From the NCBI GenBank assembly GCA_020847735.1, contig JADLBL010000011.1:1-64000 (forward strand): a stretch of DNA of 64,000 bases, written 5' to 3'. How positions within the stretch are numbered: the first letter of the stretch is position 1; every line of letters begins with the position of its first letter. The translations under genes were made by a program, and so were the position numbers. The stretch is from Candidatus Eisenbacteria bacterium (lineage in GTDB: Bacteria > Eisenbacteria > RBG-16-71-46). This document shows, one piece after another, positions 19,971-24,812 of the stretch. The notes under the pieces were generated by a model. That model was not told the origin of the DNA. It did not search any database and saw only the letters and a program-made list of their open reading frames with translations.

Positions 19971-20063
19971 CTTTCGGTCTTCACGTGGCTCGATGACGTG
20001 CAGGTGCAAGGGCAAGGTGGTCCGAGCACCCAACCGGGTTTGTGAATCGTCGAGGACTTGACC

Positions 20064-23000
20064 GTGCAGAGAGCGATCCCCCCCGATCAGCCTGAACGGG
20101 TCCTGCTGCCGCGAGACGGCTTCGGACAACGCGAGGCGGTCGGAGATCTGAATCTCGCCGCGGACAACTACGCGGGCGCCGTCGAAGCGTTTGGAGCGGC
20201 CCTTTCGGCCACCGACGCGCACGACGTGCCGTCGCGCGTTCGCCTGCTGCTCAAGCTCGCGGAGTCCGAATACCACCGGGGCGCGAGCGACGCCGCCGAA
20301 GCGGCCGCCCGCAGGGCGCGGGTCGAAGGGCGCGTCCTGGAGGACGGGCGCGTCCGTGCCGCCGTCGCGGCGCGACTCGCCGCGGTTTCGTTCGACGCGT
20401 CGAACTACCGGCGGTCGTTGCGCTACGCGCGCTACGCCTACGCCGTGCTTCGGGACACGGACGAGCACCGCACCGTCGGGAACATCGCGTTGACGCTCGG
20501 CAGCAACATGCAGCGCCTCGGTCAGCCTCACGCCGCCATCGAGTGGTTCCAGAACGCCGCGGCGACTTTCCGCCGCATCGAGCACGCCGAGGGCCTCGTC
20601 ATCGCCCTCAACAACCTCGGCATCACGTACAAGAACCTGCGCGAATGGCGCGAGGCGGTGCGCTTCCTGGAGCAGGCGCTGGCCATCGACGAGCGCAAGG
20701 GGCTGTACGCCCGCATGCGTTCGCACCATCAGAGCCTCGGCCTGATTCGCTATCGGCTCGGGCAGTGGGATCTCGCGGACGAGCACTTCCGTCACTCGCT
20801 TCGCATCGCCCGCGAGGTGGGCCACCCGACGAGTGAAGCGCAGGCGCTGCTCGCACTCGGCATGCTCTGCCGCCGCCGCCGCCAGTACGAGCGCGCGGGC
20901 GAACACTACTCGCGAGCCCTCGAACTCGCGCGCCAGACGGGGGCGCAGCGCGAATCGCAGTTGGCCCGCGAGTTCCTCGCCGAGATCGAGCTCGATCGGG
21001 GCCAGGGCGCCGCCGCGCTGGCGCTGCTCGAGCCCGCGCTCGAGGAGGCGCGCGAGTCGGCGCCGCACGGCGACATGACGATGGAGCTGGAGACGCGCGT
21101 CGGTCTGGCGATGCAGTGGATCGGTCGCCTCGACGAAGCGCATGCGCACGGCATGAAGGGGCTCGCGCTGGCCGAGCGACTGGGCGACCGCGTCGAGCAC
21201 GCCATCGCCCTGCGAACGCTGGCTCGACTCGAGGCCCTGCGCGGGCAGGCGGCCGCGATGGAGCGGCACCTGCGGGACGCGATCGAGGCGTTCGACCGGC
21301 TGGGCGAGTCCTACGAGCACGCGATCACGCTGGCGGAATGGGGCGAATACCTGCTGCTGCTGCCGGCGAGCTCGCGGCTGCGCCTGGCGCTCGAGCCGGT
21401 CAGCGACGCCGCGCGTCGCGCCTCGGCCATGTTCCGCCAGCTCGGGGTCGTTTCGCTCGCCGCCGAAGCGCTGCTGACGCTCGCGCGGCTCGAATCCGAG
21501 CGCGAACACTACGACCAGGCGCTGTCCCTGCTCGAGCAGGCCGAGTTGTGGCTGACCGAGTGCACCGATTCCGGCACCGAGGAGCGGCTGGCCACGCTGC
21601 GGCGCGACATCGAGCGCCAGTACGTCGCGGTTTCGCTCTCGACGTGCAACGAGTTCCGGGCGCTCGAAGAAGCCAACCGGCTATTCCGCGAGACCAACGA
21701 CATGGAAGGTCTGCTCGCCCAGATCGTGAAGCTCGCGGTCGAACACTCGGGCGGCGACCGGGGGTTTCTCGCCTTCAGCTCGACGGGGGGGCGCCTGGAC
21801 GTCGTCGCTCAGCACGGGCTCGGCCGGGATCGTGCCCGCCGCGTGTTGCGCGTGCTCGAAGAGGTGGGCGGCGCCCGTCTCGCCGAGAACGGCCCCACCT
21901 TCTCGAGCCGTGTCGCCGCCGACCCGCGGTTCGGAGCCGCGCTCACCGAGGCGCTCGAAGGGGTGGGCTCGCTCGTCTGCGTACCGCTGAACTTCCCGTC
22001 GCAATCGGTCGGGCTGGTCTACGTGGACCGACTCAACGACAACCTGCTCGGCGCGTTCCGCCAGCGCGAACTGAACATGCTCGCGGTGCTCGCGAACAGC
22101 GCCGCCGTGGCCATCGTCGAGGCGCAGCGCTCGCTGCTGCTGACCGAGAACCAGCAGCTCCGCGACAAGCTTCGCCCCAGCCCTGGCACCGAGCGCATCG
22201 TTTCGATCTCGCGCGAGATCGCCGACATCCTGCTGCTCCTGCGGAAGGTCGGCGACAGCAACGCCACCGTCCTGTTCATGGGCGAGACCGGCACCGGCAA
22301 GGGCCTGTTCGCGCAGGTCGTGCACGAGACGTCGAACCGTCGCGACCATCCGTTCGTGCAGGTGAACTGCGCGGCGCTGCCCGAGCAGTTGCTCGAGAGC
22401 GAGCTTTTCGGCTACGTGCACGGAGCGTTCACGGGCGCGACCCGCGACAAGACCGGACTGTTCGAGGAGGCCGCGGGCGGCACCATCTTCCTCGACGAGA
22501 TCGAGAAGATTCCCGAGGCCATGCAGGCGAAGCTGCTGCACGTTCTCGACCGCGGGGAAATCCGACCCGTCGGCGCGACGCGCACGCGCAAGGTGGACGC
22601 GCGTGTCATCTGCGCGACGAGCAGCGACCTGCGCGAGCGCATTCGCGAGGGACGGTTCCTCGAGGATCTCTACTACCGGCTCAACGACATCACCGTGCGC
22701 GTGCCCTCGCTTCGCGAGCGGCGCGAGGACATCCCGGTGCTGGCTCAGCATTTCGCCGCGCTTTACTCCCGGCAGATGGACAAGACCCTGCGAGGCTTCA
22801 CGCCGGAAGTCATGCGCACCTTCCTTTCGCACGAGTGGCGCGGGAACGTGCGCGAGCTGGAAAAGCTCGTGAAGCGAATGGTCGTGCTGGCGGACGAGGG
22901 CGACACCCTGGGATTGGAGCTGCTGCCCGCCGAACTGCGCGACGTGCGCGCGAGCGAGCCGGCAGCCCGGGCGCCGAGCGGGCCGCCCCTCGAGGGGCCG

Positions 23001-23186
23001 CCGGGTGGCAGGACGCTTCGCAGCGGCGTCTCCGAACTCGAGAAGCAGATGATCGCCGGCGCGCTCGCCCGGCACAGGGGCAACAAGGCTCGTGTGGCGC
23101 GCGAACTGGGGGTGAGCTACCCGACGTTGCTCAACCGGATCCGTACCTATCGCCTCGAGGCTCCGCAGGAGGAAAGCCGGGGCTAA
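20064..23186 (+). CDS. TPR-GAF-AAA+ sigma-54-dependent transcription activator
   Basis: The 1040-residue protein opens with about 450 residues of TPR-type helical repeats (for example AIEWFQNAAATFRRIEHAEG, ALNNLGITYKNLREW). A GAF domain follows at ~545-680 and then a sigma-54 AAA+ domain with Walker A GETGTGKG near 740, the GAFTGA loop near 788 and GGTIFLDEIEK. It ends in a Fis-type helix-turn-helix (NKARVARELGVSYPTLLNRI near 1007). There is no receiver, so control is probably by protein partners or ligands. GTG 20064 suits the GAGG at 20052 better than TTG 20058. Sigma-54 promoters lie in the gap just downstream. Confidence 0.9.
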   Translation: MQRAIPPDQPERVLLPRDGFGQREAVGDLNLAADNYAGAVEAFGAALSATDAHDVPSRVRLLLKLAESEYHRGASDAAEAAARRARVEGRVLEDGRVRAAVAARLAAVSFDASNYRRSLRYARYAYAVLRDTDEHRTVGNIALTLGSNMQRLGQPHAAIEWFQNAAATFRRIEHAEGLVIALNNLGITYKNLREWREAVRFLEQALAIDERKGLYARMRSHHQSLGLIRYRLGQWDLADEHFRHSLRIAREVGHPTSEAQALLALGMLCRRRRQYERAGEHYSRALELARQTGAQRESQLAREFLAEIELDRGQGAAALALLEPALEEARESAPHGDMTMELETRVGLAMQWIGRLDEAHAHGMKGLALAERLGDRVEHAIALRTLARLEALRGQAAAMERHLRDAIEAFDRLGESYEHAITLAEWGEYLLLLPASSRLRLALEPVSDAARRASAMFRQLGVVSLAAEALLTLARLESEREHYDQALSLLEQAELWLTECTDSGTEERLATLRRDIERQYVAVSLSTCNEFRALEEANRLFRETNDMEGLLAQIVKLAVEHSGGDRGFLAFSSTGGRLDVVAQHGLGRDRARRVLRVLEEVGGARLAENGPTFSSRVAADPRFGAALTEALEGVGSLVCVPLNFPSQSVGLVYVDRLNDNLLGAFRQRELNMLAVLANSAAVAIVEAQRSLLLTENQQLRDKLRPSPGTERIVSISREIADILLLLRKVGDSNATVLFMGETGTGKGLFAQVVHETSNRRDHPFVQVNCAALPEQLLESELFGYVHGAFTGATRDKTGLFEEAAGGTIFLDEIEKIPEAMQAKLLHVLDRGEIRPVGATRTRKVDARVICATSSDLRERIREGRFLEDLYYRLNDITVRVPSLRERREDIPVLAQHFAALYSRQMDKTLRGFTPEVMRTFLSHEWRGNVRELEKLVKRMVVLADEGDTLGLELLPAELRDVRASEPAARAPSGPPLEGPPGGRTLRSGVSELEKQMIAGALARHRGNKARVARELGVSYPTLLNRIRTYRLEAPQEESRG

Positions 23187-23232
23187 AAGAACTTTCCGAA
23201 CCGGAACCCGAAGATTGTTTTACAGGCATGTT

Positions 23233-23265
23233 GGCCCCGTTCAGGCACTTAGCCAGAACGGGGCC
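23233..23265 (+). terminator. 10-bp inverted repeat: terminator or activator site
   Basis: GGCCCCGTTC (23233-23242) and GAACGGGGCC (23256-23265) are separated by 13 bases and followed by TTCGACTTT. It could end the activator mRNA. With the next inverted repeat 61 bases on it could also form a paired enhancer. Confidence 0.5.
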
Positions 23266-23295
23266 TTCGACTTTGAAAGCTGTTTCTACATCACG

Positions 23296-23324
23296 CGAAT
23301 CCGGCATGCCGAAAGGCGGATTCG
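23296..23324. promoter_or_regulatory. 8-bp inverted repeat, candidate enhancer
   Basis: CGAATCCG (23296-23303) and CGGATTCG (23317-23324) with a 13-base spacer, the same spacer as the preceding repeat. The centre is about 90 bases before the -24 box of the sigma-54 match at 23399. Confidence 0.4.
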
Positions 23325-23398
23325 AACGTCGCTCGATCTGTCGCGTAACCCGCTTGCACGGCACCGATTGAAAGAATGTCCGGCAGTTGTGCGCGCGC

Positions 23399-23414
23399 TG
23401 GCACAGCGGCTGCT
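23399..23414 (+). promoter_or_regulatory. Sigma-54 promoter match inside the large gap
   Basis: TGGCACAGCGGCTGCT fits TGGCACR-N4-TTGCW with one change (CTGC for TTGC) and correct GG-GC spacing. No clear protein gene follows within 550 bases. Confidence 0.5.
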
Positions 23415-23614
23415 TTGTCATCGGGCCGGAGGGGGGGACCTCCACACAACCGGCGGAACATCGCCGGGCACATCTGGGCTAGCCGGCTGCGCGGGGACTG
23501 GTCGAGGGTACGAGCCCCGTCTAGCAGACAACGCATCGGAATCCGCCACCGGCTAGCTTGGAGTTTCAGATTTGAAGCAATCCTCTGGTCGTTCGGTGAT
23601 GGGACGGCCCCGGG

Positions 23615-23725
23615 ATGAGGAGCGAGAAGTACCCGGTCAGGCTCTTCGTCTCGCGGGAGTACGCCGGGCCAGAGGTTTCGGACACCGGTTATTCGCGGCT
23701 TTGGCCAACACTGGGGGATGTCTAG
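23615..23725 (+). CDS. Very small ORF (36 codons), doubtful
   Basis: ATG 23615 to TAG 23723-23725 gives a balanced peptide beginning MRSEKYPVRLFVSREY and ending LWPTLGDV, with no signal peptide or cysteines. There is no good Shine-Dalgarno sequence. It may be a chance ORF inside the putative RNA. Confidence 0.2.
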   Translation: MRSEKYPVRLFVSREYAGPEVSDTGYSRLWPTLGDV

Positions 23726-23814
23726 GCTGTAGACGCGATGAAGCTCGACCGGTGTCCACCCTGTTCAGCCGGTGTGGCGCCCTTTGCACACCTGAGTCCG
23801 AGGCGCACACCGCA

Positions 23815-23843
23815 CCGCCGCCGGTTCCTCGAGCCGGCGGCGG
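23815..23843 (+). terminator. Terminator-like hairpin in the gap
   Basis: CCGCCGCCGG (23815-23824) pairs with CCGGCGGCGG (23834-23843) around TTCCTCGAG, followed by TCTCAATTCTT. It also lies about 100 bases upstream of the second sigma-54 promoter, so an activator-site role is an alternative. Confidence 0.5.
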
Positions 23844-23929
23844 TCTCAATTCTTCCAACCCGCAGGGGGATCACGCGGTAGCTTTGAACCCGCCGGGGTG
23901 GGAACGTCCCGGTGCCCGGCGCGTCCATC

Positions 23930-23945
23930 TGGCACGGGCATTGCC
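23930..23945 (+). promoter_or_regulatory. Near-perfect sigma-54 promoter of the lipoprotein gene
   Basis: TGGCACGGGCATTGCC matches TGGCACG-N4-TTGC exactly. The predicted start is near 23957, 40 bases before ATG 23997. Confidence 0.8.
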
Positions 23946-23996
23946 GTGTAAGTCCACGGGTAACGGATTGCGTCCCATTCGAGCGGAGATCGTGTC

Positions 23997-24812
23997 ATGC
24001 GTACCGTCCTCCTGCTTTCCGCCTTCGCGCTGGCGTTCCTGGTCGCCGGCTGCAACGAGACTTCCGCGCCTCGCGACGTGACCCCTCCGGCCGCGCCGCG
24101 CGGCCTCTACTCCGTCACGGGAGATCAGCAGGCCACGCTGCACTGGCTGGCCAACACCGAAGGCGACGTCTCCGGCTATCGCATCTACACCGCTTCGCTC
24201 GCGGACGGCGCCGACGGGCCCTACTACCGGGTCGGCACGACGACACAGACCAGCTTCGTCGTCGCCGGAATGACCAATGGCGTGACCCGGTACCTGGCGG
24301 TCTCGGCGGTGGACAACGCCGGAAACGAGAGCGAGCTCTCGTACGACACCGTCTTCGACACCCCGCGCCCGGCGGGTTTCGGCGCCACGCTGTCGAACTT
24401 CCTCGACGGGGTGACCGGCGCCGGCTGGGATTTTTCGGCCGCCTCGACGCGGGCCTCCAACGATCCTGCCACGGACATCTTCTTCGGCTACAACGGCAGC
24501 GTGTTCCAGATGTTCACGCCGGACGTCAACACGGACATTCAGGACATGGGTTGGACTTCCAATCTGGACGCCATTGACTTCGCGCCGCCCGCCGGCTGGT
24601 CGCCGACCGGGTCGGTGGAACTGATCCCGGGCCACGCCTACGTGGTCTGGACCCGCGACAACCATTACGCCAAGTTCCGGGTCACGAGCCTCTCGGCCTC
24701 GGCGGTGGTGTTCGACTGGGCCTACCAGACCGACCCGGGCAACGGCGAGCTCATGGTCCAGCGCACGACCCGCGAGGGCGAGGCGGGCCGGCCGATCGCC
24801 TGGCTGAGGTGA
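23997..24812 (+). CDS. Fibronectin type III lipoprotein under sigma-54 control
   Basis: The 271-residue protein has a lipoprotein signal with lipobox LVAGC (Cys19). A fibronectin type III domain follows (TPPAAPRGLYSVTGDQQATL through YLAVSAVDNAGNESE, residues ~30-118), then a C-terminal beta-rich part containing DNHYAKFRVTSLS. The C-terminal part has the look of HmuY/DUF-type surface lipoprotein domains, but I cannot assign it. A near-perfect sigma-54 promoter precedes it, and the large TPR-GAF activator upstream is the obvious regulator. Confidence 0.75.
   Translation: MRTVLLLSAFALAFLVAGCNETSAPRDVTPPAAPRGLYSVTGDQQATLHWLANTEGDVSGYRIYTASLADGADGPYYRVGTTTQTSFVVAGMTNGVTRYLAVSAVDNAGNESELSYDTVFDTPRPAGFGATLSNFLDGVTGAGWDFSAASTRASNDPATDIFFGYNGSVFQMFTPDVNTDIQDMGWTSNLDAIDFAPPAGWSPTGSVELIPGHAYVVWTRDNHYAKFRVTSLSASAVVFDWAYQTDPGNGELMVQRTTREGEAGRPIAWLR

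Follow-up and report, generated by a model that had tools for sequence, protein, structure and literature searches.

A folded, apparently noncoding RNA gene with a sigma-54 promoter between an activator and a lipoprotein gene in Eisenbacteria

The 810-base gap (positions 23187–23996) that separates an open reading frame (ORF) for a sigma-54 activator from one for a lipoprotein-like protein in a Candidatus Eisenbacteria genome is apparently the gene for a folded noncoding RNA, encoded on the forward strand and read from a −24/−12 promoter at 23399. Judged by its sequence signature, this RNA occurs across nearly all examined Eisenbacteria and is phylum-wide. We consider it likely that the adjacent activator drives the promoter of the RNA (P1) and probably also that of the lipoprotein gene (P2), and that the RNA is an Hfq-independent, trans-acting regulator displaying two G-rich loops. 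This model builds on the promoter, the structure, the linkage to the activator, the conservation, the lack of a conserved ORF, the presence of rpoN and the lack of Hfq matches; from these we infer that the RNA is transcribed, which activator drives it, that it acts in trans and what its loops do.

The gap, its promoters and its repeats

The window is the whole 64 000-nucleotide stretch of DNA that was analysed. On its forward strand, the ORF at 20058–23186, the start codon of which is uncertain, encodes an activator composed, according to Pfam, of N-terminal TPRs, a GAF domain, an AAA+ sigma-54 interaction domain and a Fis-type HTH; rpoN was found in the same genome. The lipoprotein-like protein encoded downstream (23997–24812, forward strand) has an fn3-like region, the Pfam fn3 match being just below the cut-off, and a homologue lies downstream of the RNA in 20 of 20 family loci. 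An earlier note on this DNA had described an 810-base gap beside a sigma-54 activator, holding two inverted repeats, a −24/−12 site and a hairpin and no convincing protein. The gap and all of these features are present where it had placed them, and no reading frame is conserved among relatives. Searched at the DNA level, the gap matched in 20/20 Eisenbacteria genomes of the same family and in 0/39 outside it, and the best of these matches show a conserved block that starts at P1 and stops near the 3′ hairpin.

To set chance levels, the gap was resampled 1000 times with an order-1 Markov model. A best sigma-54 site scoring at least 10 was obtained in 29 of the resampled gaps and two such sites in a single one, and the real gap has two: P1 (TGGCACAGCGGCTGCT, 23399–23414), the promoter of the RNA, for which a transcription start near 23425 is predicted, and P2 (TGGCACGGGCATTGCC, 23930–23945), the promoter of the lipoprotein gene. 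Both lie on the forward strand and both are kept in 20/20 family loci. The promoter claimed earlier is real, but the second site, P2, which scores better than P1, had been overlooked. The scan also returned one extra site in each of five loci (L004, L009, L015, L018 and L020), which were set aside by position.

The two inverted repeats had been read as a paired enhancer, with identical spacers. Both spacers are 13 bases long, with centres 61 bases apart, but the paired-enhancer role was rejected, as the first repeat is a partly conserved hairpin and the second is unconserved and at chance level. The first (GGCCCCGTTC-N13-GAACGGGGCC, 23233–23265, forward strand; hairpin loop ..CACTTAGCC) has a similar hairpin in 13/20 family loci, a count that comes from a loose scan and includes a match of a different kind in L016; at least one perfect 10-bp repeat was seen in 2.1% of the resampled gaps. 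This repeat lies directly after the activator gene, and more probably serves the 3′ end of that gene's transcript than acts as an enhancer. The second (CGAATCCG-N13-CGGATTCG, 23296–23324), with its 8-bp arms, is unremarkable, since 25% of the resampled gaps contain at least one perfect 8-bp repeat; none of the other 19 family loci showed a repeat with these arms and this spacer, and we excluded it from the system. What stands of the enhancer-driven regulatory RNA proposed earlier is thus a sigma-54-driven noncoding unit beside an activator, without the two repeats as its enhancer. Conservation in relatives, set as a test beforehand, holds for the promoter, the 5′ hairpin and the folded domains, only partly for the first repeat and not for the second.

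Inspection by eye of positions 23190–23285, and of the same place in L001–L020, revealed in many relatives an AT-rich palindrome, TATnAA-N5-TTnATA, behind the activator gene, followed by a hairpin whose loop, ..GAGTTAGC/CACTTAGC, is conserved, and then by TTTGTTTC. This region is possibly a promoter, an operator or a terminator.

Column conservation over the 20 family loci points to another candidate upstream activating site, with the family consensus CAAC-N3-TTG-N4-AA (23361–23376, forward strand). This block is fixed in position, from 38 to 23 bases before the −24 element, and its copy in the studied genome is a poor match to the consensus; we regard it as a better candidate for the P1 enhancer than the two inverted repeats. 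A dyad search for a P1 enhancer retrieved CAAC-N2-GTTG in five of the 20 P1 regions, the shuffled maximum being also five. Before P2, GTGT-N12-ACAC occurs in 10/20 family loci, against a shuffled maximum of six, and this region is a possible P2 enhancer. Between domain B of the RNA (see below) and the second hairpin (23768–23812), many family loci keep the pattern GGTGTnGCG..GCACACCTG..GCGCACACC.

Structure of the RNA

The conserved folded RNA spans approximately 23427–23757, i.e. roughly 330 nt, and the minimum free energy (MFE) of 23427–23770 is better than that of shuffled sequences by 3.13 standard deviations (z = −3.13). It begins with SL1, a 5′ hairpin of the form GGAGG-GGGGGA-CCUCC (23428–23443), found in 41/47 class genomes; SL1 is invariant in sequence and for this reason lies outside the reach of covariation. 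A small hairpin, CCGGCG..CGCCGG (23450–23468), appears in the MFE fold and is visible in most family sequences. Domain A follows (23473–23561), with a 13-bp closing helix, an inner helix, small hairpins and a conserved CGAGGGUACGAGCCCC. Its helices are nearly invariant, so that covariation is slight (two pairs, a value reached by 19 of 500 shuffles) and gives this domain weak support. The middle domain (23582–23675), which contains ACCCGGUC, is variable, and its structure is suggestive only: the closing helix, CCUCUGG/CCAGAGG in the studied genome, recurs, with varying sequence, in much the same position in several loci, and single-locus scores are mostly within the reach of shuffles. All of these elements, and the two described next, are on the forward strand.

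Domain B (23680–23757), composed of an 11-bp closing helix, an inner helix and the loop ACA-CUGGGGGA-UGU, gives the clearest covariation. Twelve of its 25 pairs changed on both sides, where shuffles averaged 6.1 such pairs (0/500 as high), 92.8% of cells are paired, and the covariation score is 0.306 against 0.172 for shuffles; this signal is lost when partners are slid as a control. In the short form of the RNA carried by family f5 (eight sequences), nine pairs changed on both sides against 3.5 in shuffles (1/500). The covariance analysis across relatives that the earlier note had called for yields compensatory changes above shuffles in both domain B and the f5 short form, in support of the fold.

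A T-rich tract comes after the closing helix of domain B in many relatives and gives it the look of an intrinsic terminator, which makes this domain a likely first terminator, and T tracts also follow the closing helix of the short form. The second terminator candidate is a GC-rich hairpin, ACCGCCGCCGG..CCGGCGGCGGT, followed by CTCAATTCTT (23814–23844), a hairpin type seen by eye in nine of the 20 family loci (L001–L009, the studied locus included). Ending there would possibly give an RNA of about 420 nt, the length proposed earlier; the hairpin is present and this length is possible, but conserved folding ends near 23757. In the shortest relatives, the RNA is about 130 nt long.

Could the gap instead encode a small protein? 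Single sequences do contain open frames, the longest of 83 codons or, in L020 with its insertion, of 182 codons, but no open frame is common to the relatives, the lengths of spacers and domains differ by non-multiples of three, the f5 short-form RNAs lack any ORF above 29 codons, and conservation tracks base pairing. We thus hold a coding function to be extremely improbable. As for L020, its domains A and B are 730 bases apart, compared with 78–158 in the other 19 family loci, and its middle domain contains an open frame of 125 codons from an ATG, an insertion into the RNA gene.

Distribution and linkage to the activator

P1 and SL1 at near-fixed spacing were retrieved from 38/47 class genomes and from none of the 338 genomes of other lineages, and the reversed control pattern matched in 0/385 genomes. 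For SL1 alone, the search returned no match in six of the 47 class genomes, and its reversed control pattern gave five matches in the class genomes. Three genomes (G024, G028 and G045) have SL1 with a −24/−12 site outside the strict pattern. The domain B model matched in 21/47 class genomes, and some families lack domain A or B or have it in a form that could not be recognised. From genomes outside the family, 21 loci were inspected before the lipoprotein gene: 15 carry SL1, two (L131 and L136) have a different 5′ end and a weak domain A match (E = 0.0083 and 0.0052, respectively), two (L132 and L144) are without SL1, and two (L140 and L141) are cut short by contig ends. In stretches fetched from six more genomes, the RNA also lies behind an activator homologue.

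Overall, 40 of 41 loci (19/20 + 15/15 + 6/6) have an activator homologue immediately before the RNA, and the only miss, L016, has just about 290 bases before P1. In one locus (L162), the RNA stands behind the activator, and the lipoprotein gene is on the same contig but about 13 kb distant; in another (L165), the gene behind the RNA is PorV-like.

These arrangements bear on the view that the conserved sequence acts in cis, as a leader in the form of a long structured 5′ UTR that controls the lipoprotein gene, with no separate RNA. Such a leader would fit the position of the RNA, directly upstream of the lipoprotein gene and in the same direction in 20/20 family loci. However, the lipoprotein gene has its own sigma-54 promoter, P2, in all of these loci, the RNA follows the activator with no lipoprotein gene behind it in L162 and L165, and T tracts come after the helix that closes domain B or the short form. 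A leader is thus quite unlikely.

The tighter linkage of the RNA to the activator than to the lipoprotein gene could also reflect feedback, in which the RNA would bind the TPR or GAF region of the activator, or its mRNA, and tune it. However, co-inheritance of a regulator with its target promoter, as in cbrB-crcZ, explains the same linkage, and Pfam detected no known RNA-binding domain in the activator. We consider feedback on the activator unlikely. We favour a trans-acting RNA on account of its separation from the lipoprotein promoter, its terminator-like ends and its tie to the activator.

Further downstream of the lipoprotein gene lie genes for a DUF4384 protein, a PorV/PorQ-family protein and an HtrA/DegP-type protease, together with one that, by its sequence, we take to encode an LpxH-like hydrolase. 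Given these neighbours, an envelope role of the regulon is a reasonable guess.

Mode of action and relation to known systems

In the model that we favour, the TPR-GAF-AAA+-Fis activator would bind upstream of P1 and let sigma-54 RNA polymerase transcribe the RNA, and would likewise activate P2 and with it the lipoprotein gene. The RNA would then act in trans and independently of Hfq, the G-rich loops of SL1 and domain B being presented to a protein or RNA partner. A more far-reaching version is possible, though we hold it only tentatively: the RNA would constitute a new phylum-wide class of folded RNA, and a TPR-GAF sigma-54 activator dedicated to it would have this RNA as its main output. In a phylum free of Hfq, it would work through its G-rich loops as a ribonucleoprotein or a protein-titrating device, and its large domains (A, middle and B) would have come and gone while the 5′ hairpin stayed constant.

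A search for Hfq (PF17209) gave no match in any of the 47 class genomes (G000–G046); the same search finds Hfq in E. coli and others. On this result an Hfq-titrating, CrcZ-like mechanism was rejected, and the usual Hfq-dependent pairing is disfavoured. Antisense action on the lipoprotein leader was rejected as well: in 19 loci (L020 was left out for its long insertion), pairing between the RNA and this leader was not above shuffles as a set, with a mean fraction of 0.41.

The GGA-containing loops raise the further question of a CsrA sponge, in which they would titrate CsrA. CsrB and RsmZ are sponges of this type, with GGA in hairpin loops, and known CsrA sponges carry many such loops. Like them, the Eisenbacteria RNA has GGA in hairpin loops, its loop ACA-CUGGGGGA-UGU resembles the CsrA site, and CsrA is found in 34/47 class genomes, including the studied one. 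Unlike CsrB and RsmZ, it has few loops, only two GGA loops being conserved throughout, and several RNA-bearing genomes are without CsrA: no CsrA match was obtained in seven of the 38 genomes with P1 and SL1, some of which are incomplete, whereas three are 94–96% complete. A CsrA sponge is thus very unlikely.

Among known sigma-54-dependent RNAs, CrcZ and CrcY of the Pseudomonadaceae are close in layout: the RNA gene is separate and lies downstream of its activator gene, cbrB, in conserved synteny, and CrcZ acts by binding Crc/Hfq (PMC8871633). The Eisenbacteria RNA gene likewise lies directly downstream of a sigma-54 activator gene in conserved synteny. It differs from CrcZ in that its activator is of the TPR-GAF type rather than a response regulator, the RNA is richly folded, and both Hfq and Rfam matches are lacking. 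Qrr1 of Vibrio fischeri is a sigma-54-dependent small RNA that is switched on by the enhancer-binding proteins LuxO and SypG and represses LitR post-transcriptionally (PMC10162802). The promoter logic of the Eisenbacteria RNA, sigma-54 plus an activator, is similar to that of Qrr1, but the RNA has no Rfam match and belongs to genomes without an Hfq match.

No Rfam family reaches its gathering score for the RNA in the window or in 15 relatives, and within the gap only chance-level matches to other families appear at E ≤ 10. Since Rfam and Hfq matches are both lacking, the RNA would be neither CrcZ nor Qrr1, and we would class it as a new RNA family within a known kind, the sigma-54-dependent noncoding RNA gene. 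In the open-licence literature, we found nothing on Eisenbacteria together with sigma-54, and Eisenbacteria together with noncoding RNA only as a soil co-assembly. Little mapping of regulatory RNAs has been done in uncultured phyla, and an RNA tied to one activator, with a precise sequence signature, no Rfam match and no Hfq, provides a defined case of sigma-54-dependent RNAs without this chaperone.

In other phyla (L036, L073 and L080), a lipoprotein homologue stands beside an activator homologue with a short gap and no RNA, unlike in Eisenbacteria, where the RNA gene lies between the two. As these phyla pair activator and lipoprotein without it, the Eisenbacteria line probably acquired the RNA, and the comparison suggests that an RNA gene was gained inside an existing regulon. 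Lipoprotein homologues are also present in many Poribacteria, which make up most of L048–L083; a scan of the 1.3 kb upstream in eight of them (L048–L052, L060, L063 and L078) gave no sigma-54 site that reached the required quality. In L073 and L080, a single near-consensus sigma-54 site can be read by eye. Palindromes or half-sites such as GCACAATTTTTGTGC precede the single sigma-54 site in L035, L073 and L080, loci of other phyla, where they are a likely enhancer of the lipoprotein gene.
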